Origin: Conchocele bisecta
Lineage: Eukaryota; Mollusca; Bivalvia; Lucinida; Thyasiridae
Direction of reading: 5' to 3'
Assembly (NCBI GenBank): GCA_029237695.1
Contig: CM055271.1
Coordinates: forward strand, 32,670,462 to 32,734,461
DNA length: 64,000 nucleotides
The position numbers and the translations under genes were made by a program. Shown piece after piece: positions 4,547-46,644 of the stretch; position 1 is the first letter of the stretch, and every line of letters starts with the position of its first letter. The notes under the pieces are model-generated. The model was given only the letters and a program-made list of their open reading frames with translations. It was not told where the DNA came from and did no database searches.

Positions 4547-4833
4547 GTAATGCTACTGAACTTGCTATTGCCGGAATCGTAGTGCTAACATGGTCATCAT
4601 TAAAATGAAGAAACCGCAGTCGTATTGATGAAAGATAGATTTACCTCGCAACAAATGGGCGCCGCCATTACGGAAAACTAAAGCAATAGACCACGTGATA
4701 CCACACCGTGTTATCATGGATACGATAAACTTAGACACTACGCCATTTTCATACTTCCATCACGTCCTTAGCTAACAGCTAACCCGAATTTTCTGCCCTG
4801 CGTTACAGACAGAACATCCGGGTTATTCCTTAC

Positions 4834-5187
4834 CGGATTGCTCAGGGTCCTGTCGGATTTGCGCCAGTATATGGCCGTACTGCGGATCACTCCTGCCCCG
4901 GCCAATGACCACATATTGGTCACTGCGGTTTGGATCAGGTAGCACAGGTGTCCGGCATTTTGGTGGTACTTGATATATGTACACCGGTCATCGGCCCGGC
5001 ACACGTCCATACACTCGTAGATCCGCACCCCCAGTAGGATGGCCACTGTTTGTTTGTCCGTCGGCTCAGATACTGACCAGTGGAACAGAGGCCTGACCGC
5101 TGGAGTCGTGTCGGGACGGACGTGCACGTACAGACATAGTGTCCAGTAAATCCCATACACGATACTTATTGCCATGTATTTGTCCAT
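4834..5187 (-). CDS. First exon of a secreted PAN/apple-like domain gene (A)
   Basis: On the minus strand this 118-codon exon starts MDKYMAISIVYGIYW. It has a hydrophobic signal-peptide-like start, then a cysteine-rich region with the spacing C-x3-C-x5-C-x12-C (ECMDVCRADDRC and GHLCYLI), typical of PAN/apple folds used in extracellular binding. It ends at CCG followed by GTAAGG, a good phase-0 splice donor, so further exons should lie at lower coordinates; I could not identify them. It is clearly paralogous to the plus-strand exon at 45258-45566: both share a LF-x-W-x2-SEP core, an ECM cysteine helix and a donor at the equivalent place and phase. An alternative start is the methionine at 5175. 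Ligand and downstream domains are unknown. Confidence 0.6.
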
Positions 5188-5381
5188 TGTTACAAAGCCC
5201 GATACACGATGTGTGTTGCCATTTATTTGTCTATCGTCATAGACGCCGCCCGGCAATTTGTATCATACCTACCACATGCATTTATCAGGTAACCTGCCCT
5301 GTATTGATTGAATACGTACTGACTAATAACATAGTGTTGTACAGATACAGACCTGATACAGACATCCGGGTTACAACGAAA

Positions 5382-6821: not shown

Positions 6822-7010
6822 TAGTTGCGAACAGTAACTTGCATTCTTCCATCAGTAGCGAGTAACGATTCCACTCATAGGCTGCAGAATAATTAGCTGC
6901 TAAAGTTTTAATCACATCTGATTCGCTATTCTGCGAAGCCTATGTTTGAAATTGTAACTCGGACTACGGACGGTACGGGAGTAGATGGCAAGAGTTACTG
7001 TTCGCAACTA
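6822..7010. mobile_element. Inverted-repeat element TAGTTGCGAAC, left of Crypton relic
   Basis: It begins TAGTTGCGAACAGTAACT and ends with AGTTACTGTTCGCAACTA. A second inner pair, CATAGGCTGCAGAATA and TATTCTGCGAAGCCTATG, gives a nested hairpin. The same terminus recurs at 8238-8310 on the far side of the recombinase relic. Confidence 0.7.
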
Positions 7011-7069: not shown

Positions 7070-8046
7070 TCAGATGTGATTTGGCACAGCTCCAAAGTTT
7101 CCGAAATTGAATGTGCAATCGTGGAATGTATTGCCAGACAAGAATGTTGCAGGAAATGGATCTTGGGCAGAGAAAGTATTCGCTGACGAGGTGTTAGAGA
7201 CATTTTCGATCTCCTGTAGCGGCAGAACATTCACACTCCTAGGGACAGATACAGTGGTCGTGCTCAGTGGGGCGATTAATTGACCCGGTTGTACTGCGCT
7301 CGGTGGGGCGATATTCTGACCAGATTGTAATATATTTGATATCTGACGATGTTCTCCGATATACAGTTCGGCGTCATAGTGTGTGATGGATTGTATATTT
7401 TTATGTCCCGTAATTTTCATTTTTTGTTTGTGGGGGAACTCCTGCTTTCGATAGAGTGGTGACTGTTGACTTTCTAATACTCTAACCGTGACGAGATTCC
7501 AGCTTCCTCTGCAGCATTCTTCATCAGACTGCCAAGTGGGTAATACCAGAAAATAAATATTTGGGATAAAATGTGTAAGACATACTTTTGAGAACTTTGC
7601 ATATCGGCCAGGTTGTAGAATCATTTTAAGATCACTATTCAGACACACTGAATTACATCTCATTTTTCACCAATTATAATAATTATCAAAACATTGTCGT
7701 AGTTATAACTATTTTACTTTTCTAACTAAATATTAATGTCACTTTCTATGAAACTTCATTTGTTCTTCATCCTTGTCTGTAATGATTTTCAGTGTCATAT
7801 GATAATGTTTAAATAACATTTAAAAACGAAATGGAAACAAATCATAGTGCATTATTTCACATAATAAATGTCATACCATGGCTCATTTGCTGTGCCTCTC
7901 AATCGTTGTTCTGGTACTGCTGTCAGGTAAAATGGACTGTCAGCAGCCAACATCTCGGAAGGTCGGCGACTTCTGAAGATCTCGAAAATCTTGACAGGGT
8001 CTCTGAAATGGAAATATTGTCCATACAAAAATGTTATGTTTCTCAT
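7070..8046 (-). pseudogene. Decayed Crypton/DUF3504-type tyrosine recombinase
   Basis: Fragments of one protein lie on the minus strand in shifting frames. From upstream to downstream they are a segment with RPSEMLAADSPFYLT (about 8000-7900); a segment with MKNAAEEAGI and STVTTLSKAGVPP (about 7545-7440); and a C-terminal part with MKITGHKNIQSITHYDA (about 7430-7370), followed by a low-complexity tail ending FHDCTFNFG. Family knowledge: this order (RP-FYL block, helix before the catalytic region, GH motif, tyrosine in the last helix, then a TFN-rich tail) is that of Crypton-derived DUF3504 recombinases, which cut and rejoin DNA through a tyrosine. Several frameshifts and a missing stretch near 7560-7850 make it non-functional. 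Identification comes from residue patterns only. Confidence 0.6.
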
Positions 8047-8237
8047 ATATTGTCACGCCAGATGGCAGATATTGATTTCAAACAAGAATATAATATTTTT
8101 TCCAACAAATTTCACAGTACATTGTATACACAGAATTATATCTCAAATTCAACTTCAGATGTATTTATGGATTTAAGTCAATATCAGCAAAATACAGTGA
8201 TAAGAAACAATATTTTGTTCACGTGCTGGCCCGGATA

Positions 8238-8310
8238 TAGTTGCGAACGGTAACTCTTGAAATTTGCTCCCATACCGTCCACGAGTAGATTGCAAGTTAC
8301 CGTTCACAAC
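8238..8310. mobile_element. Inverted-repeat element TAGTTGCGAAC, right of Crypton relic
   Basis: It begins TAGTTGCGAACGGTAACTC and ends AGTTACCGTTCACAAC, a short palindrome related to 6822-7010. It lies at the border of the CpG-rich virus-like block. Confidence 0.6.
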
Positions 8311-8311
8311 A

Positions 8312-9096
8312 GTAGTGAGAACGGAGCATTTCAATCTACGATGGATCCGGATCTAGGGATTGAGATTTAAATACAACGTAAACGTATGGGGATCGACTAA
8401 TCGATAACTCGAATATCTAGGGTACGCGAGAGTTATTGTTCATGATCCTTGGAGGTAATACGACTTCCCTTAACGTTACCGATTCCTGCGAAAATGGGTC
8501 TTACGATCGTCGATAGACCGACGTATACCTCGAAATATACGCGTGCGTATTCGTCGGTAATTGTCCGTTCGTCCGTCCGTCCGTCCGTCCGCGTGTTCGG
8601 TGACGTAACGCTCGAAGGTTTCGCGGACAGCGACCGGGGTGTCGCTATAGGTACCATCTCCCCCGCGTTAAAGGGTTGTGACAGGGAGGAGGAGGTACAC
8701 GTATATAGTAAATTAACCGTATCTGTCGGTGCAGGGAAACAAACCGATAAGGGCGTTCACCCGTATTATACCCGTTAATAGCAGACGACAATTTCTACCT
8801 GTGAAAACCCGTATTCGATATACAGATCGATACCGTTGATGCCGGGGTATTTAAAAATATCACAATGGGTTAATATTCGCGTTATTGGCTAGAAACATAT
8901 TTGTATTTAGCTTTAATAACACGTCTCGACATGTTGAAACACGTTTACTTAACTGACGACCTAATATCTATAAATACAGTACTTTTCCCGAGATTAAATC
9001 ATTCTTGATAGAGACTTCGCCGAGATAGCAGAAGTACCCCCAAACGTCCTACTTTATAGACGTTCTCAATTCGGATATACGCGAGATAGCGTCGTG
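8312..9096. other. CpG-rich non-coding left region of the virus-like element
   Basis: No convincing gene is seen. The region shares the CpG-rich composition of the coding block and contains a GTCCGTCC tract at about 8565-8592. A 109-codon open frame crosses that tract but looks incidental. It may hold a terminal inverted repeat or origin-like sequence, which cannot be shown with only one end in view. Confidence 0.4.
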
Positions 9097-9098
9097 GG

Positions 9099-9108
9099 TT
9101 ATATATAG
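9099..9108 (+). promoter_or_regulatory. TATA-like box before the first PC4 gene
   Basis: TTATATATAG lies about 36-45 bases before the ATG at 9144, in an otherwise CpG-rich stretch. The position suits a core promoter with a very short leader. This is an inference from position and sequence only. Confidence 0.4.
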
Positions 9109-9143
9109 AGAAACGTTTATATATTTAAATTACAAGCAGCAAG

Positions 9144-9662
9144 ATGTATTCCGTTAGCGGTACGTGTCGACTAGGAAACGACATACTTCTGGATATCAGA
9201 AAATATGAACATTACAGCGAATTGGTGTTTGAGGAATACGCGTTTGAGAGAAAGTTCGTGTTACCCACAGTCAGGGAGTTTCGCTTGTCATTACAAAGAT
9301 GGAATCAGCTCGTGTTGAACTTAGCGGATATAGAACAGACGATCCTGGAACATAAGAATGGACGCGATGTGCGTTTTGAACTCCATCTAGGAGGGAACTA
9401 TTACTTACACATAAACAGAGGATTTGAAGCGGTTAATTTAAGAAAATACAGCATCCCAGACGGAGGAAACGATATACAACCCAGACGAACGGGTATCGCT
9501 TTGATGTTCGATGAATTTGATAGACTCGTGAGTTTAATACCCGACATCGAACGGTTCGTACCAGAACTCGCTACGATCCAACCGTGTTACATGCAGCCGG
9601 ATGACGCCAATTTACTCGGAGCGCTATACTGCGCAGAGTGCAATCCTAACTGCGTCCTATAA
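9144..9662 (+). CDS. Double PC4-domain protein, virus-like element (PC4-A)
   Basis: This 172-residue protein contains two copies of a PC4 (transcriptional coactivator p15/Sub1) fold. The second copy, residues about 75-145, is the clearer: a strand series ending VNLRKYSIPDGG, a basic turn (QPRRTGIAL), and a final helix (LVSLIPDIERFVPEL). The first copy, about residues 8-68, has LLDIRKY, FRLSLQRWNQLV and LADIEQTI in the same order. PC4 proteins bind single-stranded or melted DNA and help assemble transcription initiation complexes. A C-terminal tail with PCY followed by C-x2-C-x-P is shared with the gene at 10338. The start is the first ATG after a TATA-like box. The next gene starts 10 bases downstream. 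The frame is intact. Role within the element is inferred. Confidence 0.7.
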   Translation: MYSVSGTCRLGNDILLDIRKYEHYSELVFEEYAFERKFVLPTVREFRLSLQRWNQLVLNLADIEQTILEHKNGRDVRFELHLGGNYYLHINRGFEAVNLRKYSIPDGGNDIQPRRTGIALMFDEFDRLVSLIPDIERFVPELATIQPCYMQPDDANLLGALYCAECNPNCVL

Positions 9663-9795
9663 GAAGAGACTATGTTAATTTGGATATATTTATTCCAAGA
9701 ATACGTGGCGAAGACGCTGATACCTTATTATAATTTAAAATTCGAGGCTCGGGAAGCGGCAAATAGTTGTATAGAGTCTTGGGAACATCGACAAA

Positions 9796-10203
9796 ATGAA
9801 TGTAGAAACTGCTCGCATGCTTGGAATGAGATCGGAGAATGCCAAACGACACATAGCCGCTGTGAAATGGATTGGCGTTTCGGTTATGATACTCATAACT
9901 CTAGCCATCCCGACGTTGATTTTGATCAGACGATTATCAACGGATCGCGGTGATCGATTGATCGATTACGTCACGACATCCAGTAGTAACACGATGGCTT
10001 GCGATTACAGCGAATGTTACGATCTTGGTGAAACGACGTATTTAACGGTGTGTAACCTAAGCGGATACGTTATACTGGACATAAGGAGATTTATCAACAA
10101 CTCGGCATCTATCGCCGGTATTCCCCTGAACTTAAATCAATGGGCAGCCCTTAAAGGACAAATTCCCTCTATCGATGACGCTATCGGCACGAATACTGAC
10201 TGA
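9796..10203 (+). CDS. PC4-domain protein with N-terminal membrane segment (PC4-B)
   Basis: This 135-residue frame has a basic N-terminus, one strong hydrophobic helix (about residues 25-45, WIGVSVMILITLAIPTLILI) and a C-terminal single PC4 domain (about 76-130). The domain shows the family pattern very well: YVILDIRRF, then GIPLNLNQWAAL, then QIPSIDDAI. Family PC4 proteins are soluble, so the membrane helix is odd. Either it is a true fusion, or the PC4 protein starts at the methionine near residue 67 (about 9994) and the helix belongs to a separate small membrane protein. A partly overlapping frame at 9672-9953 begins MLIWIYLFQEYVAKTL and may be a short gene or the lost front of this one. 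It lies between two double-PC4 genes, so it probably arose by duplication. Confidence 0.6.
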   Translation: MNVETARMLGMRSENAKRHIAAVKWIGVSVMILITLAIPTLILIRRLSTDRGDRLIDYVTTSSSNTMACDYSECYDLGETTYLTVCNLSGYVILDIRRFINNSASIAGIPLNLNQWAALKGQIPSIDDAIGTNTD

Positions 10204-10337
10204 ACGACGAGTTACGATTGGATGATGGGTGGTCGACGCTGATTGGAGAGAATATAACGTTTAAATCCGCATGCGCAGTTGACGGACATTCATTATTCGG
10301 TCGGTTCTCGAGTCGATAACATCAGCAACAGCGCAAC

Positions 10338-10901
10338 ATGTCTGAGAAGCCAGAAAACCAATCCGGAGGTGCGAACATTCAGGGAGGCGATAGAGCGTGT
10401 AATCCTAGATATTTACAACACATGGACAAGGAACTGTACTTGTTCGACGGCGTGTTTAATGGTACTACGTACATACACGTTCGGGAGCTGAGTCGGGAGA
10501 ATAAGAGGCCTACTGTCAGCGGAATAACGCTCACATTGCAAAGGTGCAACGAACTATACTCTATATCACCGGAAGTTGTAATTCACGTCGATCAATTGCG
10601 AAGAAACGAGCCCACATTATATCGACGATATATAGGTGGGAACTGGTTCGTTACTATGGAGACGGTGTACGATACCGTGCACATTAGAAAATGCTGGCTA
10701 CCGAACAATGAAACGAGTATAAGTGCCACGAGAAATGGGGTTTCCTTGACATTTAACCAGTTTGAAGAGCTGACAAATGGACTCCGAATCCTGGATACGT
10801 TTCTGCCGGAACTAAACCGAGTAGTGCCGTGTTACTTATCCGGCAAGCACGTAAGAGATGTTTGTAAAGCATGTTCGCCAAACAATACTAGCGTGGCATA
10901 G
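10338..10901 (+). CDS. Double PC4-domain protein, virus-like element (PC4-C)
   Basis: This 187-residue protein is a diverged paralogue of the gene at 9144. A polar N-terminus of about 35 residues precedes a weak first PC4 copy (TYIHVREL, then SGITLTLQRCNEL) and a better second copy (FVTMETVYDTVHIRKCWLP, then NGVSLTFNQFEEL, then LDTFLPEL). The C-terminal tail again has PCY followed by C-x2-C-x-P. PC4-family proteins bind melted DNA at promoters or repair sites. The frame is intact, and an AATAAA signal follows the stop at 10935. A role in transcription of the element is inferred from the neighbouring TBP-like gene. Confidence 0.65.
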   Translation: MSEKPENQSGGANIQGGDRACNPRYLQHMDKELYLFDGVFNGTTYIHVRELSRENKRPTVSGITLTLQRCNELYSISPEVVIHVDQLRRNEPTLYRRYIGGNWFVTMETVYDTVHIRKCWLPNNETSISATRNGVSLTFNQFEELTNGLRILDTFLPELNRVVPCYLSGKHVRDVCKACSPNNTSVA

Positions 10902-10934
10902 CGATCGTTTTCTCGCGTTCATGTATATGTAAAT

Positions 10935-10940
10935 AATAAA
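10935..10940 (+). promoter_or_regulatory. Polyadenylation signal after PC4-C
   Basis: AATAAA begins 34 bases after the stop codon of the PC4-C gene, a normal distance for eukaryotic 3' processing. The TBP-like gene starts 57 bases further on. Confidence 0.5.
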
Positions 10941-10997
10941 AGTATTATCCATGTACCACCGTATCAGTTTATCATTTGCTCCCACTAAGTTAACATC

Positions 10998-11514
10998 ATG
11001 TGCATCACAAACGTAGTTTATGGTGCTAGTTTAGGTTGCCCGATAGATCTGAGAACCCTCAGTCATTTCTTGGGTGACGCTAAATATGACCCGAACCGAT
11101 TCTCTGGACTGATATGGCGTCATGATTGTATAAGAGGATTGTCTAGTGTTCCGTAATGATAAAGTTGTTTGCAACGGGTCGACTGCTAGTTTTAAAGACG
11201 GCGAGATCAGACTGACTCGGTATGCCAGAAAACTACGACGTTTAGGTTACGAGATACGCTTATCCGACGTCAAATTAATCACGGTTTCCGCTTGTCATAC
11301 GCTGAGTGGATCTATTGACTGTTCAACATTTTGTAGGGAAAGTGGTTCTAGTTACGAACCAGAATTGTTTCCAACGATAATGTTTAAGAAAGAGAAAATA
11401 CATTTCTCTTGTCATCTGAACGGTAAGCTGTTAATTACCGGTATTAAAGCGGAGGAAGATTTGGAAGACGTCGTCTATCCCGCCATCATTGAGCTAGAGC
11501 TATATACGTCGTAA
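10998..11514 (+). pseudogene. TATA-binding-protein (TBP) homologue with one frameshift
   Basis: Together the two frames cover both halves of the TBP saddle at nearly the usual core length (about 170 versus about 180 residues). The first frame (from the ATG at 10998) has ITNVVYGASLGCPIDLRTLS and YDPNRFSGLIWR, matching the start of TBP repeat 1. The second frame (up to the stop at 11512-11514) finishes repeat 1 (LVFRNDKVVCNG) and carries repeat 2, with RYARKLRRLGYEI, the highly diagnostic SSYEPELFP, and GKLLITGIKAEEDL. TBP bends TATA DNA and nucleates RNA polymerase II initiation complexes. The frames change near 11133, beside two copies of GATTGT 13 bases apart, so a short insertion or a single-base change is likely. 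The integrase ATG follows after 3 bases. A host retrocopy is unlikely given divergence and context. Confidence 0.75.
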
Positions 11515-11517
11515 ACA

Positions 11518-12609
11518 ATGGCCACCTACGAACGATATTTAAATTCTATTTATTACGATCCTGAACATCCCGCATCGTACTCTGGTGTGGAAAAGTTGTT
11601 TAAGGCAGTGAGGAAGGCTGGTAAATTTGTGCTAGACAGAAAGAAAATCAGAAAATGGCTAGAGAAACAAGAACCGTACACCGTGCACCGTCAAGTTGTA
11701 CGGAAGTTCACCAGAAGAAAAGTGGTAGTACCATACATCGATTATCAATGGGAGCTGGACATGACCAATTACACAGAAGACAACGACGGGATTGGATATT
11801 TCCTGCTGCAGATTGACACGTTTTCTATATTTATTAGAACGTTTCCCATGATTCGCGTGAAAGGAGAGGCTGTGACTCGTGCAATGGCTGAGGTGTTCAA
11901 ACGGAACAATGTACCGGATAAGATACACACGGATCGGAGTAGCGAATTCAAGAGTCGAGTTTTCCAGAAACTGTTGAAAAAACATCATATTGATCACTTC
12001 TACTCGAACAACGAGACTAAATGCGTTATGGTGGAGAGGGCGATCAAGACGATTAAATCCAGATTGGCTAGATGTATGACTCATCATCAGACACATAGAT
12101 GGATAGATATTTTACCCTCGGTCACCGATAGTTACAATAAAACTTACCATAGATCAATCAAAATGGCACCGGCGAGCGTTACCAAACGTGACGAGATATC
12201 TTTGTGGAAACTACGATACGAAAACCCGAAGACAATTGTGAAACCATCGCCTGGATACAAGTTCAAGGTCGGTGATACGGTGCGGATATCGCATTTACGG
12301 CGTCCGTTTCAACGGGAATACGATGAGCGATCGTCGATCGAATACTTTTTGGTCAATACGCGTGGTAAAAAGCAGAATATCGATTACTATACGATCACAG
12401 ACATAAGAGGGGAGGTAATCGGTGGAACATATTACGCTAACGAATTGAGCAAGGTAACCGTAGATGACGATGCCAAATTTATAATCGAGAAGATTGGGCG
12501 CAAGAGAAAACGCGAAGTCTTAATGAAGTGGTACGGATGGCCCGTCAAGTTTAATAGCTGGATACCCGTGACAGATATAGACACATATAAGACTGACAAA
12601 AGTATATAA
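11518..12609 (+). CDS. Retroviral-type integrase with chromodomain (Polinton class)
   Basis: This intact 363-residue protein has the layout of Polinton/Maverick integrases. An N-terminal helical part with KLFKAVRKAGKF precedes an RNase-H-fold core with catalytic D81 (WELDMTNY), D139 (KIHTDRSSEFKS) and E173 (MVERAIKTIKSRL). An SH3-like segment follows (FKVGDTVRISHLRRPF), and the C-terminus is a chromodomain of about 35 residues (FIIEKI to FNSWIPVTDI, with MKWYGWP). The enzyme would join the ends of the element to chromosomal DNA, and the chromodomain may steer it to particular chromatin. It starts 3 bases after the TBP-like stop and ends 11 bases before the penton-like ATG. It is the only clearly full-length enzyme gene in the block. 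Confidence 0.85.
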   Translation: MATYERYLNSIYYDPEHPASYSGVEKLFKAVRKAGKFVLDRKKIRKWLEKQEPYTVHRQVVRKFTRRKVVVPYIDYQWELDMTNYTEDNDGIGYFLLQIDTFSIFIRTFPMIRVKGEAVTRAMAEVFKRNNVPDKIHTDRSSEFKSRVFQKLLKKHHIDHFYSNNETKCVMVERAIKTIKSRLARCMTHHQTHRWIDILPSVTDSYNKTYHRSIKMAPASVTKRDEISLWKLRYENPKTIVKPSPGYKFKVGDTVRISHLRRPFQREYDERSSIEYFLVNTRGKKQNIDYYTITDIRGEVIGGTYYANELSKVTVDDDAKFIIEKIGRKRKREVLMKWYGWPVKFNSWIPVTDIDTYKTDKSI

Positions 12610-12620
12610 ATCGATTGATC

Positions 12621-12910
12621 ATGGATAGTTTTTATCTGTTTCTGAACTGTAGAGACTCGTTAAATGCGCATAAGAACAACTCGGCGTCAGCATTTGACAT
12701 AGAATTGCCAAAAGCGTACGTATTGGATGGAAACTGAGAGTGTGGTTTGAAGGAAATAAGTTTAACGTTCGCATTCCAACCCAAATAGTAGATAGTACTC
12801 GTACCATAACATTCGCTGAACCATTTTATGTGAAAGTAAAGTCGACCGATCTGAGAAGATTAACAGTGTTTATTAAAGATTCGGAACTGAAACCGAAACT
12901 CCGTCCCTAG
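12621..12910 (+). pseudogene. Broken start of a penton/minor-capsid-like gene
   Basis: The first frame reads MDSFYLFLNCRDSLN, followed by a SAFDIELPKAYVLDGN segment. This follows the pattern seen at the start of Polinton/adintovirus penton proteins: FYL near the N-terminus, an LP a little later, then a G-x-W-x-x-GL-x-EI block. Here a TGA (12735-12737) stands where the tryptophan codon is expected. A second stop lies at 12786, and the sequence continues in another frame to 12910 with FAEPFYVKVKSTDLRRL. Only about the first 95 residues remain, so the break and the end of the viral block coincide. The call is based on the N-terminal pattern and the position next to the integrase. Confidence 0.5.
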
Positions 12911-13184
12911 GTCAATATAACTATTCAATATGCTTTTCTCAGGTCAACATCACGTTTTATTTAAAATCACCTGTCCAGCATGTACCTATCACGTACATGG
13001 ACATTTCTCAATTTATAATAAATTGATTATTCATGCTGTAACACCGTCTTCTTTTGTTGATCCCAGAAGAACATCTAAACTTTTGAAGACATTTTGAATG
13101 GTACACAATAGGCGTTGACTTCAACTCCTATTGTTTCACCACTGAAATGTCTTCAAGATGTGCAACATGTAAGCTACACGTAAT
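12911..13184. other. Non-coding junction to host-like DNA
   Basis: CpG becomes rarer and AT content rises. It contains an imperfect hairpin, ACATTTCAAAAG/CTTTTGAAGACATT, around 13070-13150. No gene is seen. Confidence 0.4.
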
Positions 13185-16217: not shown

Positions 16218-19200
16218 AGGTGCATGCCCACTCAGTAGGTGGGAGTCAAATAATACACTCAGTAATACAGGGAGACAGATACTCAGTAGGTAGTAGTAAG
16301 GGAGTCAAATAATACACTCAGTAATACAGGGAGACAGATAATACACTCAGTAATACAGGGAGACAGATAATACACTCAGTAATACAGGGAGACAGACACT
16401 CAGTAGGTAGTAGTAAGGGAGTCAAATAATACACTCAGTAATACAGGGAGTCAAATAATACACTCAGTAATACAGGGAGACAGATAATACACTCAGTAAT
16501 ACAGGAGTCAAATAATACACTCACTATACAGGAGACAAATAATACACTCAGTAATACAGGAGACAGATAATACACTCAGTAATACAGGGAGACAGATAAT
16601 ACACTCAGTAATACAGGGAGTCAAATAATACACTCAGTAATACAGGGAGACAGATAATACACTCAGTAATACAGGGAGACAGATAATACACTCAGTAATA
16701 CAGGGAGTCAAATAATACACTCAGTAATACAGGGAGACAAATAATACACTCAGTAATACAGGGAGGACAAAATAATACACTCAGTAATACAGGGAGACAG
16801 ATAATACACTCAGTAATACAGGGAGACAGATAATACACTCAGTAATACAGGGAGACAGATAATACACTCAGTAATACAGGGAGACAGATAATACACTCAG
16901 TAATACAGGATACAGATAATACACTCAGTAATACAGGGAGTCAAATAATACACTCAGTAATACAGGGAGTCAAATAATACACTCAGTAATACAGGGATAC
17001 AGATAATACACTCAGTAATACAGGGAGTCAAATAATACACTCAGTAATACAGGGAGTCAAATAATACACTCAGTAATACAGGGAGTCAAATAATACACTC
17101 AGTAATACAGGGAGACAGATAATACACTCAGTAATACAGGGAGTCAAATAATACACTCAGTAATACAGGGAGACAAATAATACACTCAGTAATACAGGGA
17201 GACAGATAATACACTCAGTAATACAGGGAGTCAAATAATACACTCAGTAATACAGGGAGACAGATAATACACTGAGTAATACAGGGAGACAGATAATACA
17301 CTCAGTAATACAGGGAGACAGATAATACACTCAGTAATACAGGGAGACAGATAATACACTCAGTAATACAGGGAGTCAAATAATACACTCAGTAATACAG
17401 AGTCAAATAATACACTCAGTAATACAGGGAGACAGATAATACACTCAGTAATACAGGGAGTCAAATAATACATTCAGTAATACAGGGAGTCAAATAATAC
17501 ACTCAGTAATACAGGGAGTCAAATAATACACTCAGTAATACAGGGAGACAAATAATACACTCAGTAATACAGGGAGTCAAATAATACACTCAGTAATACA
17601 GGGAGACAGTAATACACTCAGTAATACAGGGAGACAGAAAAATACACTCAGTAATACAGGGAGTCAAATAATACACTCAGTAATACAGGGAGACAGATAA
17701 TACACTCAGTAATACAGGGAGACAGATAATACACTCAGTAATACAGGGAGTCAAATAATACACTCAGTAATACAGGGAGACAGATAATACACTCAGTAAT
17801 ACAGGGAGACAGATAATACATCTCAGTAATACAGGGAGACAGATAATACATCAGTAATACAGGGAGACAGATACTCAGTAGGTAGTAGTAAGGGAGTCAA
17901 ATAATACACTCAGTAATACAGGGAGACAGATAATACACTCAGTAATACAGGGAGTCAAATAATACACTCAGTAATACAGGGAGACAGTAATACACTCAGT
18001 AATACAGGGAGACAGATAATACACTCAGTAATACAGGAGTCAAATAATACACTCAGTAATACAGGGAGTCAAATAATACACTCAGTAATACAGGGAGTCA
18101 AATAATACACTCAGTAATACAGGGAGTCAGATAATACACTCAGTAATACAGGGAGACAGATAATACACTCAGTAATACAGGGAGACAGATAATACACTCA
18201 GTAATACAGGGAGACAGATAATACTCAGTAATACAGGGAGTCAAATAATACACTCAGTAATACAGGGAGTCAAATAATACACTCAGTAATACAGGGAGAC
18301 AGATAATACACTCAGTAATACAGGGAGACAGATAATACATCAGTAATACAGGGAGACAGATAATACACTCAGTAATACAGGGAGACAGATAATACACTCA
18401 GTAATACAGGGAGTCAAATAATACACTCAGTAATACAGGGAGTCAAATAATACACTCAGTAATACAGGGAGTCAGATAATACACTCAGTAATACAGGAGA
18501 CAGATAATACACTCAGTAATACAGGGAGTCAAATAATACACTCAGTAATACAGGAGTCAAATAATACACTCAGTAATACAGGGAGACAGATATACACTCA
18601 GTAATACAGGGAGTCAAATAATACACTCAGTAATACAGGGAGTCAAATAATACACTCAGTAATACAGGGAGTCAAATAATACACTCAGTAATACAGGGAG
18701 TCAGATAATACACTCAGTAATACAGGGAGTCAAATAATACACTCAGTAATACAGGGAGACAGATAATACACTCAGTAATACAGGGAGACAGATGGAGACA
18801 GATAATACACTCAGTAATACAGGGAGACAGATAATACACTCAGTAATACAGGGAGTCAAATAATACACTCAGTAATACAGGAGACAGAATACACTCAGTA
18901 ATACAGGGAGACAAATAATACACTCAGTAATACAGGGAGACAGATAATACACTCAGTAATACAGGGAGACAGATAATACACTCAGTAATACAGGGAGACA
19001 GATAATACACTCAGTAATACAGGGAGACAAATAATACACTCAGTAATACAGGGAGACAGATAATACACTCAGTAATACAGGGAGTCAAATAATACACTCA
19101 GTAATACAGGGAGACAAATAATACACTCAGTAATACAGGGAGTCAAATAATACACTCAGTAATACAGGGAGACAGATAATACACTCAGTAATACAGGGAG

Positions 19201-20250
19201 ACAGATAATACACTCAGTAATACAGGGAGACAGATAATACACTGAGTAATACAGGGAGACAGATAATACACTCAGTAATACAGGGAGACAGATAATACAC
19301 TCAGTAATACAGGGAGACAGATACTCAGTAGGTAGTAGTAAGGGAGTCAAATAATACACTCAGTAATACAGGGAGACAGATACTCAGTAGGTAGTAGTAA
19401 GGGAGACAGATAATACACTCAGTAATACAGGGAGACAGATACTCAGTAGGTAGTAGTAAGGGAGACAGATAATACACTCAGTAATACAGGGAGACAGATA
19501 CTCAGTAGGTAGTAGTAAGGGAGTCAAATAATACACTCAGTAATACATGGAGACAGATACTTTTGTATATTCTGTAGATTTTCTTCCAAAGTAAACATTC
19601 ATTCACCATTACCCCACGTAATTATTGGCATTACTATACGATTTTATATCAGACGTATATGTCTACATTCATATCACGGGCGATAACCGTGTTTCCTTAA
19701 AATGTTAACGGACATTACTATTTCTTCTCTGTATTTATTTTTTGATGTGCAATGATCATACATTATAATATGTCGAACATATTATTATACCAGCACCCCC
19801 CCCCCCCCCCCCCTGCAACGAGTTGTGTGTGTGTGTGTGTGGGGGGGGGGGTATACTGGAGTCAGGTTGTCCGTGCGTCCGTCCGTGCGTGCGTCCGTCC
19901 GTCACTAAACTTAACATCGCAGAAATATGTTATAACTACATATTTAGGGGTACCTGGGCCCACGCTTGGGGTATTCCGTAAGCCTCGCTTACTGATAAAT
20001 CTAGTTTTTTCTGGTGACGTATTTAATTAGTATAAATAATTAAAAAATATCATGCCTCATTTGTATATGAAATTAGTCTGATACCACCGCGAGTCACTAT
20101 CAGTAAAATAAACATTACTAAATGAGTATATCTGTATAGCAGGCACTTGTAATATTTAGAACTGGTGGAATAGTGACACAATTATACACTTAATATATAA
20201 TTCCTACATGTATAAAGAACAGTTTATACCTACTGAGTGTGCATGTACCT
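16218..20250. mobile_element. piggyBac-like MITE copy B, split by an internal minisatellite
   Basis: The left end AGGTGCATGCCCACTCAGTA (from 16218) and the body from about 19565 onward (GGGCGATAACCGTGTTTCC, ACTATCAGTAAAATAAA) to GTGTGCATGTACCT (20250) are one TTAA-family MITE; the flanks are now TGTAA and GTAA. The 3.3-kb array lies between them. A CCCC.../GTGTGT.../GGGG low-complexity patch interrupts the body at 19790-19910. Confidence 0.8.
16236..19559. repeat. 29-bp minisatellite, about 115 copies
   Basis: The unit is built on ATAATACACTCAGTAATACA followed by GGGAGACAG or GGGAGTCAA, two variants that alternate irregularly. A longer variant with ACTCAGTAGGTAGTAGTAAG appears at both margins and once internally near 17870. 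The core word CACTCAGTA is also part of the MITE terminus in which the array sits, so the array probably arose from that terminus. There are no unique spacers, so this is not a CRISPR array. Open frames on the minus strand are by-products. Confidence 0.95.
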
Positions 20251-22695: not shown

Positions 22696-23943
22696 ATGGA
22701 TGTACATGTAGCCACAGATGACAGTGATGATGAAATGCTACTGATGGGCTATCATATTTTAAGAAGACGTAGGCAAAGAAGAAAATGGGTACATGAAATC
22801 AACACTAGACGTGAAGAATTGGGTGAATACCATAAGCTAATTCAGGAACTAAGAGCACATCCAGACAAATTTTACACATACTTTCGTATGAGCCCGGAAA
22901 AATTTGACGAACTTGTTGAAATATTAACACCTAGGCTCCACCGTCAGACGACACGTTTTAGAAAAACCTATTGGTGTACCTGAACAACTTGCGATATGTT
23001 TGCGCTTTTTAAGTACTGGTGATGCATTTACAACCATCGCATACAGTTTTCGATGTGGCATTAGTACAGTAAGTGATGCTGTCTATGAAGTTTGCGATGC
23101 ATTATGGGAGTCTCTCAGTGACACTTTACTCCCTGTTCCAACTGAAGAATCATGGTTGGAAGGCGCAAGAAGATTTGAAGAAAGATGGAACTTCCCTCAC
23201 TGCATCGGTGCTATCGACGGAAAACATGTGACAATTGAAGCACCTCCAAATTCCGGATCCTTATATTTCAATTATAAGAAGACATTCTCTATAGTGTTGT
23301 TAGCTATAGTAGACGCAGACTACCTATTCACAGCCGTAGATATAGGGAGTTTTGGCAGCAGCAGTGACAGTGGAATTTTAAACAAATGTCCCATGGGGAT
23401 AGCCCTTGAGCAACAACAGTTTAACATACCACCTGCAGAGCCATTACGAAATGCTGAGGAACACGGCCCGTTACCGTATGTGATTGTTGGAGATGAAGGA
23501 TTTCCGCTGAAAGATTACATGCTACGACCATACCCTGGAAAAAACTTATCAGAGGACAAACGTATCTTTAACTACAGGTTGTCGCGCGCTCGACGAATAT
23601 CAGAAAATGCCTTTGGTTTGTTAACTCATCGCTGGAGGATATACAACAGGAGACTACGTTTGCATCCTGACAATGCCACTAAAGTAGTTAAAGGTACAAT
23701 AGTGTTACATAACTTTATCCAAAAGGATTCTATTGGACAACATGGGATGGATGACAGTGGAATGCCACAAGCAGTTTGCGAAGGGAATCAAGAAAATGCT
23801 GGGCTTCACACATACCACAAGTGCCTACACGTAACAGACCAAAGGCACATTCTGTCCAAGTTAGGAATCGGTACAAAGATTACTTCGGTTCAGAGGAAGG
23901 AGCTGTACCATGGCAGTATTCACTAATTCGAGGGGAACGTTAA
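22696..23943 (+). pseudogene. PIF/Harbinger (HARBI1-like) transposase with two frameshifts
   Basis: The N-terminal part (22696 to about 22960) contains RMSPEKFDELVEILTPRL. The frame then shifts at an A-run (22962-22966) and resumes with GVPEQLAICLRFL. The nuclease core is intact: first acidic residue in GAIDGKHV, second in IVGDEGFPL, third in RARRISENAFGLL, the DDE triad that cuts and joins transposon ends. A second shift around 23795-23815 leaves the normal C-terminus (RNRYKDYFGSEEGAVPWQYS) in another frame, ending at the TAA of 23941-23943. Apart from the two small indels the gene is full length (about 400 residues), so the loss looks recent. It faces the MADF-BESS gene, which in this superfamily supplies DNA-binding help. 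Confidence 0.88.
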
Positions 23944-35676: not shown

Positions 35677-36278
35677 TTAAATAGGATTATTTGTATTTTT
35701 TGACAGCAGTGTATATCTTTGGAACAGACACCTACTGTCTGTTTCACGAAAGCTGCCCAAATGTTACGGCTATATAAACAATTCAAAAACAATATTTGTT
35801 TCGATAATATTAAATTATAACAAAATTTAAGAATGAGCCTACTTTTTATTTCGTGAAATTTTGTCCAATATTGATTTGATTGCAAAAAAACAATTTCCAC
35901 ATGTCAAATCCCCATATTTTCACAGAGTGAAGATATCTATGGGGATTTAACATGGGATTTTTTTCTAATTTCTTAAATATTGGACCGATTTTCAAAATGT
36001 TACTTTTGTTTTCTTAGTTAGATCATTTCCAAGCTATCTAGCTAGGTTTCGGAATCAATTTCCAAAATATTTCGTTTTTTGTCTCCTCCTCCAGGTTCTC
36101 CATCTCTTTTTCCCCATGTTAAAGGTACATGCCCACTCAGTAGGCACAAAATGTTCTTTATAGGAATGAAATAAGTCTATAATTGTGTCACCATTCCACC
36201 AGTTCTAAAAATTACAAGTGCCCGCTTTACAGATATAATGATTGAGTAATAAATATTTTACTGATAGTGATGCGCGGT

Positions 36279-37255
36279 GAAACGGCGAAAACAGGACGAG
36301 GATGTTGAGATTGTTCACTTGGCATCGTGTTGCGATGACCTTGACCCCCATAACCAAACTGCAAACCAAGGTACAGGTTCGCAGTTTATCGATTTTGAAA
36401 GGGCCTTGAGTAATGCCGTGAACATTGAAAATGTAACCCCTATCGTAACTTCCCCGAACCTTGACAATGTGACCTTGTCGTCTTCCCCGGCGAACATACA
36501 TGTAACCCCATTTAATCCCATATCCAGTATATCACTTGCTAACCCCGCACAGATGAGGTGTGAGGGAGGCGAGTTGTCTATACATGTGCCAATTGCAATT
36601 AAACAGAAAATATGGCAGAACCAATTTGTGAATCTGGCCGCCTTAATGAAAGGTAGTGTAGAGCTAAATAATCTTTGCAATGGGGATGGGACCCTCCAAT
36701 TGAGCCCTGAGGGTTTTTTTGGAAACAAAGCCGATGGGTATTGGGGAAAAACTTACAACTATAGAAAAATGGACAGACGCGTTTTTGATTTTTAGCTCCA
36801 TTATATTCAAAGACATGATAAGGCAGCCGAATTATTCCAATATATGGCTGTCATACGGGAAGCGGCAATTAGACATGTCGGTTTCGCATGGAGAACATAT
36901 GATGAGCAATTTAGATTGCGTCAGGCGGTTACACCAGTTTCTTGGGCAAAGCTCAATCCAGAGCTATGGCTAAGAATTATGACTGGTAGCGTTGGTCAAT
37001 CCACATCTGCTGCTCCACAGCAAAACATGACTAAGCATAATGTGCCCAAGAAAACATATGCATGCTTTGATTTTAATAAAGGTCGGTGCCCACATTTGTC
37101 AAGTCTGCCAAAGTAATCAGCACGGACAATTTAATTGTCCGAGCGGTCCCACACTGACATATTCGTATACAAAACAGGACATAAGGGGCAGGGGGGCATT
37201 TCGGAGATTCATGGGAAGGTTTAATCGAGGGGGACGCCTATATTTCCGACGATAA
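36279..37255 (+). pseudogene. Gag-like gene of the Ngaro element
   Basis: Three successive frames give an acidic/serine-rich N-terminal part (to about 36795), a helical middle (VPIAIKQKIWQNQFVNLAAL, then FAWRTYDEQFRLRQAVTP) and a C-terminal cysteine region (ACFDFNKGRCP, then CQVCQSNQHGQFNCP) ending in an arginine/glycine tail (RGRGAFRRFMGRFNRGGR). The cysteine region is what is left of the zinc-finger pattern seen in DIRS-order Gag proteins, with part deleted at the frame change near 37105. At least two frameshifts (near 36790 and 37105) make it non-functional. Confidence 0.6.
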
Positions 37256-37280
37256 CCTGTCGTATACAAATAGTAAGTTT

Positions 37281-38867
37281 ATGTTGGCCCGTTCACCTAT
37301 TAACATTGATACGTTGGAATTAGAGCTAAAACACTATCATCATGAGGATTCAGAATATATTTTGAATGGTTTTAAGAAAGGATTTTTGTTACATTATCAT
37401 GGCCCGCGGCAGGCTTCAGAAGCCAGTAATCTAAAGTCAGCAAGAGATAATCCCGACATCGTTCAAGAAAAAAATAAAAAAGAAATTCAGGAAGGTAGAG
37501 TAGCAGGCCCATTTGACACGAGACCATTACCCAGACTCCGTATATGGTTTGGTTCCCAAAAACACGGCCGGCGATTTTCGCTTAATACATCACCTATCCC
37601 ACCCGCATGGCTCGTCTGTTAACGATTTTATAGATCCTAGCTTAAGCTCAGTCCAATACACACATTTTGACGAGGCCATTTTTATGATTCAAGACTTGGG
37701 AAAAGGTTGTAATTTGGCGAAAGCGGACATTAAATCTGCATTTCGTTAATCCTCACGATTTTGAGTAGGTAGGTTTTAAATTTGAAGGCAAATATTATTT
37801 TGATAAATGCTTACCATTTGGCTGCTCCATTAGCTGTAGCATATTTGAAAAGTTTTCAACATTTTTAGAATTCTGTGTAAAGAAGAAAGCTCAGTTACGC
37901 TGGATTATACATTATTTAGATGATTTTCTGATGGCCGGTAGAAGAAATACAAATGAGTGTGCATACCTGCTGGATGTTTTTAATCGCTGTTTACAGACAT
38001 TGGGTGTGCCTATTGCGAATGAAAAAACAGAAGGTCCTACTACTATTATTGTTTTCTTGGGTTTGGAATTAGATTCAAATGAAATGGTGGTACGAATACC
38101 AAAGGAAAAGGTAAATGATATTGTGGTAAAGATTAGGGAAATATTGGGTAAGAAAAGGGTGACATTACGCATGATGCAATCTCTGATTGGAGTGCTAAAT
38201 TTTGCTTGTTGTACCGGGGAGACCGTTTTGTAGACGGCTCGTCAATTCAATTTGTGGCCTTACCAAGCCACATCATCATATTATAATTAATAAGGGGATT
38301 AGACAGGACTTACGAATGTGGTTAAACTTTTTTGACAAATTCAACGGGGTTTCACTGTTCCATGACAGGTTTTGGGTGTCCAATTCTGATATACAGCTTT
38401 ATACAGATAGTGCAGCTGGAGTTGGTTTGGGCTTCGGAGCTTATTTTCAAGGTAGATGGATAAGTGCAGCTTGGCCAGATGATTGGTTTACAGATGGAAT
38501 TGCAGACGACATCACGGTACTGGAAATATTCCCTTTATTGGTTTTATTGCACATATGGGGCAGTGAGTTGGAAAATAAGGTTATGTTCAGATGTGACAAT
38601 ATGTCTGTAGTTTACGTAATTAATACAATGTCTTCTAAATCAGATAATATTATGACTATATTGAGGGCATTTACACTCAAATGTCTGGAGTTTAATATTG
38701 TCGTAAAGGCCACCCAAATACAGGGTAAGAATAATGTGTTATCTGATAGCTTATATCGCTTACAGATCGGACGATTTCTGGAAATGGCTCCTGGGGCAGA
38801 CCATGAACCAGCGGAGATGCCCAGCCATCTTTGGAACATATTCAGGCAGCAGCCAGAAAGCTTGTAG
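37281..38867 (+). pseudogene. Reverse transcriptase-RNase H of the Ngaro element
   Basis: RT blocks appear in order: LGKGCNLAKADIKSAFR (finger/palm entry), CLPFGCSISCSIFEKF, the polymerase motif IIHYLDDFLMAG, and VFLGLELDSNEM. RNase H follows with IQLYTDSAAGVGLGFGAYF, VLEIFPLLVLLHIWG, FRCDNMSVVYVIN and QGKNNVLSDSLYRLQ. The enzyme copies element RNA into DNA and removes the RNA strand. Breaks occur near 37620, near 37745 (stops after SAFR) and near 38220, so no complete protein can be made. The recombinase frame overlaps the end of this one. Confidence 0.82.
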
Positions 38868-39734
38868 TCGCCAATGTATCGGTCAATACTAATAAGGCAT
38901 ATAAGAATGCAATGGAGTCGTTCGCCAGTTTTTGTAGAACATATAAGCTGTCTGGTCAATGGCCAGTATCAGTTGAAAGAGTGGTTTTGTATATATCATA
39001 TTGTTTTGAGATGGGTTATGCAGCTTCTAGCATTACCTCTTATATATCTGGTATAAGTTTTTATCATAAAATTCAAAATGTGTCCGACCCCACCGATAGT
39101 TTTATGGTTAAAAAATTGCTTGAGGGTTGCCGGCGCTCGCGTAGGCAAAGGGACGTAAGAGCTCCTATTACGGAAAGTATATTGCAAAAAATTGTGGTGG
39201 CTGTAAATGTCATTTGTTTTTCTGTTTATGAGTCTGTGTTATTTAGGGTGGCCTTTACATTATTAGCCTACTTTGGATTGTTTAGAGTAGGCGAATTGGT
39301 GTTCACTACACTAAGTTACTCTGATAGGCCGTTGAGAGTCAACGATATTCAATTTGAGGGTGAGGCGTATGCACTACGAATAACCATTCGATTCTCGAAG
39401 ACAAATCAGAGGGGAAACCCAACAACATTGAGAATACCGAAATGTACAAAAAATGACATTTGCTGTGTTAGGGCTGTACATGAATTTGTCCAGATTAGGC
39501 CGAACATAGGTCATAATGGATATTTTTTGTGTCATGCAAATAACAAGAAGTCAATTTTGTGGGGTGTTATCCAGAGCTATTAAATATTTGGGTTTACCAG
39601 GTACGAACTATAAAAGCCACTCATTCAGAATCGGCCGAGCTACCACGCTGAGTTCGCAGGGCGTGAGTAGGGAAACTATTAAAATGTTGGGTAGGTGGCA
39701 GTCACGGGCATATGCGAATTACATACGTTTGTAG
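38831..39734 (+). pseudogene. Tyrosine recombinase of the Ngaro element
   Basis: An N-terminal SAM-like DNA-binding part (VNTNKAYKNAMESFASFC, then MGYAASSITSYISGISFY) precedes the catalytic domain. That domain has the first arginine in LFRVGEL, the H-x-x-R motif in HSFRIGRATTL, and the nucleophilic tyrosine region GRWQSRAYANYIRL. These are the R, H, R and Y positions of the family, which circularises and inserts element DNA without target duplication. One frameshift (about 39520-39580) separates the catalytic end from the rest; otherwise the protein is full length (about 300 residues). Confidence 0.82.
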
Positions 39735-45101: not shown

Positions 45102-45257
45102 AATCAGGCATTTGATCATTCTGAGCCATAGTTGTGTGCTATGCGATCACGAACGGAATTATCACCGGATATAAATGAACAAGAAACTCAATCAAAAATA
45201 TGTGTCACATGTGTTTTCGTCCGGTTTAGAAAGGTTCCACTTACTTGCTCTGTTAAA

Positions 45258-45566
45258 ATGGAACCATTATTACGGGTGTCATGGATCTTTGTATTCATTA
45301 ACGTCAACCGTACTTCCGGGCTATCTCTATTCAAATGGCCGACATCGGAGCCATCAGCTAGAAAGAAGCTCGCCGTGTTGCACGGCGTTAGCCTCACCGA
45401 GTGTATGAATATATGTTGGAGCAGCGAACGCTGTACTCACATACGGTATCACCGGCGCTACCACCGCTGTGTTATGAAGACGGTGGACACGGTGAGAAAT
45501 CAGGCGGTCACAAGAGGGCGGGCTATCGTCACATCGCTGAAGTCGGAATGGGACGAAACAATGGTG
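45258..45566 (+). CDS. First exon of a secreted PAN/apple-like domain gene (B)
   Basis: A 103-codon exon starts MEPLLRVSWIFVFINVN, a signal-peptide-like sequence, and continues into LFKWPTSEPSARKK and a cysteine region with C-x3-C-x5-C-x11-C (ECMNICWSSERC ... HRC). It ends ATGGTG followed by GTACGT, a phase-0 donor at the position equivalent to the exon at 4834-5187. The two exons are on opposite strands 40 kb apart and have diverged considerably, so they are old paralogues. PAN/apple folds bind proteins or sugars outside the cell. Exons 3' of the donor were not recognised. Open reading continues past the donor but loses the paralogy there. Confidence 0.6.
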
Positions 45567-46644
45567 GTACGTATATCTTTGTATGTACAAGCCATCGTAA
45601 AGTTTCACCACTTCGTGCGTTTGACACATTCAGCAAATAGTATGACAGTAAACCAAATACAATTTGGTGCAATACATAATACACAGATATTACAACGGCA
45701 AGCTATAAATATTATGCCAGCAAACTATATAAAAGACGAGATATCTGAACATTGCTCCCATCAATCTCAAAATAAATATTTCGATGTGTAAACTTTTCAA
45801 TCTGATGCACAGCCTATATTAGTGTACACGTTGCACATAGGTAAAGCCATATTCACTCGCATAGTAGGTGAGTAGGCACCATGGACAATACACTCAGGTA
45901 ACTGCTTACATGTCACTGGATTTGATAGCTAATACCAGAGTATAGTAGTGGGTATATATGGTATGTGTTGTGTGGTTTGCCAGGTACAAGTGATACACTG
46001 TGCAATTTTCTGTGTATGAGGCTATCTATAATGGTGGTTCATGTTGCTAATAACACAGGCACAAACCTGTCCAGAAAACTGACATATTTTAAAGTTTGGT
46101 GTAATCTAATGAATAGGAGTCCGTTCTCCTGGCTTTTCTACATGTGCTTAGCTACATTATATCATATGTTCTACTTCACATTTTGAGTTCTTTGTCAAAC
46201 AGCAGAACAGGTGAAACTGGCTGATGGCTGGAAAACACAAAGATGGCCGACTTGGCCATCAGCATAATAAATTATAAAATGTGGACTTATTTTTTATGCA
46301 ACAAGTGATTTTAGTAAATTGGTCATGCTGAGAAATGAGGCCAGCCACAGGTTTCCTAGCAAAGTTCTAGAGATACGATGCCGGTGCTGATGTAAATACT
46401 CAATCAGCAAAGAGCGTAAATACTGTTATATAGTTATAAAATAAACAGAGAATTTGTTGTTTTCAGCGTAAGATCGAATTATTTTTCATCTCGTGAACAC
46501 CAAACGTTATATTTTCAAAATAACACAAACTGAAAACAACACATATCCTCTATTTATTGCATAGAGACAACTGCCTCGTGAGCGTATGTATACATGGCTA
46601 TGATGATAATACACGTACAATACAATATGAGAATACTACTATGT
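45567..46644. other. Non-coding interval, possible intron of PAN gene B
   Basis: No further PAN-gene exon, repeat family or other gene could be supported. Confidence 0.4.

Follow-up and report, generated by a model that had tools for sequence, protein, structure and literature searches.

The window (the whole 64,000-nucleotide stretch of Conchocele bisecta DNA analysed here) contains a homologue of the TATA-binding protein (TBP) directly upstream of an integrase gene, within the remnant of a putative Polinton/adintovirus-type element. Few proteins of eukaryotes and archaea are as conserved as TBP, and viral versions have been described chiefly in large DNA viruses. The earlier note on this DNA had recognized the TBP homologue, the adjacent integrase and three PC4-family genes. 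Beyond that reading, the TBP belongs to a large, multi-copy family in which the base-reading residues are changed. With their own TBP altered in this way, such elements may rely on a separate set of promoters.

The TBP gene and its neighbours

The element and its genes were assigned as follows:

8239..12960 (+): element fragment overall, from gene content and CpG profile; the right end is approximate, placed by eye inside the next gene
8239..8280 (+): candidate left terminus, starting with AG; inverted match of 43 nt (8238-8280; 86%) to the end of a MITE-like unit at 6823-7009
9144..9662 (+): PC4-like paralogue of 10338-10901, 172 aa; BLASTP 1e-19; Pfam PC4 0.017, 15 bits
9796..10203 (+): ORF with one PC4 domain (approximately 10018-10185); PDB PC4 1.1e-5; Pfam 0.017, 15.1 bits
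10338..10901 (+): PC4-family gene, 187 aa, two PC4 stretches; Pfam PC4 1.1e-7, 31.7 bits against a cut-off of 25
10998..11156 (+): TBP homologue, first half (frame 1, 52 codons plus stop); Pfam TBP 3.3e-8, 33.7 bits; 82% to P0001
11146..11514 (+): TBP homologue, remainder of repeat 1 plus repeat 2 (frame 2, 122 aa); Pfam TBP 1.8e-8, 34.5 bits; PDB yeast TBP 2.2e-13
11518..12609 (+): rve integrase, open reading frame of 363 aa; Pfam rve 2e-11
12481..12588 (+): C-terminal chromodomain of the integrase; 17.9 bits against a cut-off of 25.1; relative P0030, 28.0 bits
12621..12737 (+): start of the next gene, 38 codons followed by an in-frame stop; read from the sequence, with no Pfam or PDB match

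Read from the sequence, the TBP-homologous gene extends from an ATG at 10998 to a stop codon at 11512-11514, and a spacer of three bases separates it from the integrase ATG at 11518, as had been noted earlier. The gene is broken by a single frameshift. Frame 1 ends after 52 codons at the stop at 11154-11156, and frame 2 is free of stops from 11134 to 11511. This copy is probably a dead gene. The two pieces were searched and aligned separately. The earlier note had claimed that both halves of the TBP saddle could be read, and proposed a profile search and a structure prediction as checks. Each piece on its own exceeded the PF00352 cut-off of 22.9 bits, and the 122-aa piece also matched yeast TBP structure chains in the PDB search. 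The closest intact relative, P0001, which is 82% and 87% identical to the first and second pieces, respectively (tblastn), contained two PF00352 stretches (Pfam scan), and was predicted to fold into a TBP saddle (pLDDT 92) at 1.9 Å from human TBP. Both checks were thus in agreement with the original assignment.

The three PC4-family genes held up to different degrees. Only the gene at 10338-10901 passed the PF02229 cut-off directly; the genes at 9144-9662 and 9796-10203 reached about 15 bits and were connected to PC4 indirectly, through similarity to 10338-10901 and a match to a PC4 structure, respectively. BLASTP did not significantly link the ORF at 9796-10203 to either of the others (5.1 and 0.023), and this ORF overlaps another one, at 9672-9953; one of these two may not be a real gene. 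A profile made from 10338-10901 and 9144-9662 matched solved PC4 chains at only 0.014, and a model of 10338-10901, with 9144-9662 as its only relative, had a pLDDT of 37.5 and was discarded. The PC4 gene found no match in the viral contig collection.

A family of bare TBP cores

The 122-aa piece identified 29 relatives at E 0.001 among 33 candidate proteins, the best being P0001. A profile built from 22 of these retrieved 700 relatives out of 2852 candidates. The figures given for the family rest on 127 distinct proteins, made up of the matches from the first search and the best 120 of the 700 profile matches. Most of these (106/127) were 165–182 aa long and consisted of bare TBP cores, and all 101 relatives scanned (hand-picked from the 127) matched PF00352. 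Three intact members scored below the cut-offs of all ten listed NCBIfam TBP models, at 48–81 bits versus 181–347 bits. Among the relatives listed, clusters at 90% identity had up to 288 members, and there were Mb-sized contigs; both point to repeats in animal genomes. The named sources, among the matches listed, were Mercenaria mercenaria and MAGs of Sedimenticola and Thiodiazotropha. Since the latter two are symbionts that live in bivalve gills, host contamination is the likely source of the TBPs in these MAGs.

One Mercenaria mercenaria member of the family, P0182, is annotated as “TATA-box-binding protein-like 1”. Bivalve gene models named TBP or TBP-like may thus be mobile-element genes.

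The same annotation could be taken to mean that the gene in the window is a retrocopy of host TBP or of TRF2/TBPL1 that landed beside an integrase by chance, and the N-terminal ITNVV motif is indeed similar to that of TBPL1. However, the identity of P0001 to solved cellular TBPs in the structure comparison was 22–29%, and only 26% to human TBP, whereas an animal host TBP core is expected to be far closer to the human protein; the retrocopy reading was rejected on this basis. The phylogenetic tree also argued against it. When 32 element TBPs (hand-picked from the 127) were placed in one tree with six cellular sequences (human, yeast, human TBPL1 and three archaeal), a branch of length 1.69 with a support of 100/100 split the two groups. 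Descent from TBPL1/TRF2 was considered as well and was rejected, since the family sits across this branch from TBPL1, the TBPL1 sequence used in both tree and alignment having been entered by hand. The TBPL1 and archaeal rows were long-branched, and the tree is therefore read only for the separation of the family from these sequences. We regard a host retrocopy as extremely improbable. The closest relatives of the gene in the window are instead a family of mostly intact bare cores distinct from host TBP genes, a point on which the earlier note's interpretation had depended.

The residues that contact DNA were compared in 119 full-length members, leaving out eight of the 127 that were shorter than 155 aa. 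We take the four intercalating phenylalanines of yeast TBP to be F99, F116, F190 and F207, and the base-reading positions to be N69, T124, N159 and T215. Three of the four DNA-kinking phenylalanines were kept in every one of the 119 members. The fourth, F207, was Phe in 91 members, while 23 others have His, four have Tyr and one has Arg; P0001 has His at this position, as does the aligned piece from the window. In the base-reading set, N69 was retained in 116/119 (the remaining three being gaps) and T215 in 113/119, whereas T124 was replaced by Asn, Gln or Ser and N159 by Thr or Ser throughout. V161 was likewise changed to Ser or Thr in all 119. P0001 differs from most of the family in having kept V122, in addition to lacking F207. 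The EPEL/I stirrup was conserved.

Like the cellular TBPs of human, yeast and archaea (PF00352), the element TBPs thus have a two-repeat saddle with three kinking phenylalanines, N69, T215 and the EPEL/I stirrup, but they differ in overall identity, in the changes at N159, T124 and V161 and, in 23 of the 119, in the His at F207. Compared to a canonical TATA-specific TBP, the four-Phe set is incomplete in part of the 119 members and their base-reading set is altered. The T124 and N159 changes occur in neither human TBP, yeast TBP nor TBPL1, and TBPL1 lacks the three phenylalanines that the element family has in common; both observations also speak against a retrocopy origin. The family provides a naturally occurring range of TBPs whose base contacts differ, in which the reading of DNA by the saddle can be studied.

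Integrase linkage and element type

Relatives of the integrase in the window made up 414 of 1614 candidates, and the nearest among those listed, P0030, was 88% identical. The C-terminal chromodomain of P0030 lies above the Pfam cut-off and that of the window copy below it; the integrase family profile matched CBX chromodomains at 1e-5. In an alignment of 21 sequences (20 of them hand-picked from 120 listed integrases), D81 and E173 were invariant and D139 nearly so, and from their conservation these residues probably constitute the DDE triad. All matches of the integrase to the IS3 and IS481 transposase models of NCBIfam were below cut-off.

Linkage between TBP and integrase in the relatives was assessed indirectly, from contigs of equal size. 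The nearest TBP (P0001, 87%) and the nearest integrase (P0030) each occur on one contig only, and the two contigs have the same size, 5166 bases. In total, six exact longest-contig sizes were common to the 127 TBPs and the 120 integrases (5166, 2124, 2112, 7391, 6820 and 2307), compared to a chance expectation with a mean of 1.2 and a maximum of 4, obtained by offsetting the sizes in both directions by 1–60 bases. The source label was the same in five of the six pairs; it differed in the 2307 pair, which may be a chance match. On the 2124- and 2112-base contigs, a TBP of 161–168 aa and an integrase of 360–380 aa leave less than 600 bases, so that the two genes would be neighbours. The TBP and integrase identities were correlated in the five same-source pairs (r 0.85, with 8/120 permutations as high), and less so over all six (r only 0.60, reached by 49/720 permutations). 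The integrases of the three pairs belonging to one TBP clade did not form an exclusive clade of their own; they fell within a 10-row clade with a support of 97/94, a weaker sign of common descent.

The proximity of the two genes raises the possibility that the TBP serves integration, by bending or marking target DNA for the neighbouring integrase. There is a precedent, in that Ty3 integration uses TFIIIB, and the three-base spacing, the contig sizes common to both families and the chromodomain of the integrase are all compatible with such a role. The PC4 neighbours, however, suggest transcription or replication instead, and no TBP fusion was found among the best 120 of the 414 integrases, which were 274–395 aa long. 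(The TBP searches took only proteins of similar length and could not reveal TBP–integrase fusions.) We therefore consider an integration role quite improbable.

The earlier note had implied an element of Polinton/adintovirus type. Judging from the architecture of the integrase, with an rve domain and a C-terminal chromodomain, this appears to be the best place to file it; Polintons/Mavericks and adintoviruses have the same arrangement, which is stated for adintoviruses in the available part of PMC11071296. Other hallmark genes did not turn up: there was no polymerase (including protein-primed DNA polymerase B), capsid protein (double jelly-roll), penton, FtsK ATPase or protease in the Pfam scan, which covered 33 of the 45 window ORFs of at least 105 aa in and around what is a truncated fragment. 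The other 12 ORFs, mainly overlapping frames and repeat-like ORFs, were omitted by eye. The product of 12621-12737 resembles the N-terminus of Polinton/adintovirus penton proteins and may be the start of a penton-like gene product. The element is a truncated and decayed left-hand remnant with three PC4-family genes, TBP and integrase in that order. At its left side, the CpG observed/expected ratio rises from 0.26 (8001-8200) to 1.45 (8201-8400); the right end is not marked by CpG, as values of 1.0–1.35 recur beyond 13200.

Polinton/adintovirus termini are inverted repeats that start with AG and are flanked by a 6-bp target duplication. The MITE-like unit at 6823-7009 (187 bp) has a perfect 18-bp terminal inverted repeat with arms at 6822-6839 and 6993-7010 and ends in AG...CT; no 6-bp target duplication was seen around it by eye. 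In the repeat table of PMC8905726, as far as that source was available, Maverick DNA accounts for 1.69% and 1.93% (in two columns) of Mercenaria mercenaria genomes.

Relatives were also sought in collections of viral and genomic contigs. In the viral contig collection there were no relatives of the TBP, searched with the piece and with alignments, or of the integrase; the sole TBP locus was a 20-residue match on a phage-like contig. Neither protein had a match in the phage collection, and the TBP alignment found only six archaeal loci in the genome contig collection.

A possible role at element promoters

The role that we favour, by analogy and with some reserve, is that the element TBP stands in for host TBP at the promoters of the element, and that TFIIB and RNA polymerase II of the host are recruited through it. 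The conserved phenylalanines would bend the DNA, while the altered base-reading face would recognize a sequence other than the host TATA box. The conserved EPEL/I stirrup would then dock host TFIIB and thereby bring in host RNA polymerase II, with the PC4 proteins acting in support as coactivators or as binders of melted DNA. The earlier note had proposed that the TBP and the PC4 genes form a transcription-initiation module; the PC4 proteins may equally be single-strand binders in replication. The outcome would be transcription of the element, perhaps late, that is uncoupled from transcription of the host.

TATA-like hexamers were found at most 80 bases upstream of six of the seven element gene starts (9100-12603), compared to 16% of control 80-mers. 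This was the strongest of five promoter patterns tried, and two of the seven ORFs overlap; of the other patterns, three were found at 3/7 starts versus 4–10% of controls and one at 4/7 versus 22%. The hexamers may merely reflect AT-rich spacers, and since the base-reading face is changed, a plain TATA motif is not the expected target.

Alternatively, the protein could be a decoy or regulator that binds DNA or TFIIB so as to block host transcription or silence the element. An altered base-reading face combined with an apparently intact TFIIB stirrup would also suit such a squelching factor. The PC4 neighbours and the hexamers at the gene starts fit promoter use better, however, and the TBP-like proteins of herpesviruses serve viral promoters, according to the available part of PMC4893493. 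We consider a decoy function unlikely.

Those herpesvirus proteins are the closest model for the promoter role that we favour. The TBP-like proteins of beta- and gammaherpesviruses, including EBV BcRF1 and MHV-68 ORF24, bind TATT boxes of late promoters and, being virus-encoded as well, provide a model for promoter reassignment; they are only distantly related to TBP, in contrast to the element TBPs, which match Pfam and are bare cores (PMC4893493, for the herpesvirus proteins, in the part available). In the BFVD comparison, the top ten matches of the element TBP had TM scores of 0.60–0.78 by query length and identities of 12–21%, and the best 50 included one named herpesvirus, Ranid herpesvirus 2, at rank 39.

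The TBP fold also occurs in giant viruses, in African swine fever virus (ASFV B263R) and in mirusviruses, but these are large, whereas Polinton-type elements are small and the one in the window bears an rve integrase. In the parts of the sources that were available, TBPs are described from giant viruses (PMC11464507, PMC12085832); from ASFV, where B263R is a TBP with three conserved phenylalanines (PMC5825884); and from mirusviruses, 59% of which have a TBP in one account (PMC10132985) and for which TBP is also reported in another (PMC12768974). An alga also has sporadic TBPs in elements that putatively derive from mirusviruses (PMC10675990, likewise in part). Neither TATA nor TBP occurs in the main text of PMC10120064, PMC11071308 or PMC11071296, all of which deal with Polinton-like or related elements. 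Among the matches listed from a literature largely without subscription journals, there was no report placing TBP in Polintons, Mavericks, adintoviruses or transposable elements of bivalves, nor was PC4 found together with Polinton in the literature searched.

If a small integrating element carries a bare TBP core, even Polinton-type elements would be able to supply their own promoter-recognition factor. As a tentative extension, the TBPs of animal Polinton-type elements, with their minor-groove reading face rewritten, might constitute an orthogonal general transcription factor that steers host RNA polymerase II and TFIIB to a core-promoter code not recognized by host TBP, and that would be present in very many bivalve copies, at least one of them annotated as a host gene.

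Several other features were observed in the window. A Harbinger-like DDE_Tnp_4 transposase is located at 22928-23923 (+; 4.2e-35), and an ORF run at 36271-39580 (+) resembles a YR (DIRS/Ngaro-type) retroelement by appearance. A reverse transcriptase of retroelement type and a weak match to a phage-integrase N-terminal domain occur among the 33 ORFs scanned. PAN-domain matches were found in two scanned ORFs (best 2.8e-6), the putative carriers being 4771-5262 (-) and 45132-45788 (+), which look alike by eye. Finally, a tandem array with a 29-bp unit occupies 16241-19559, listed as two adjacent entries of 88.4 and 26.4 copies.
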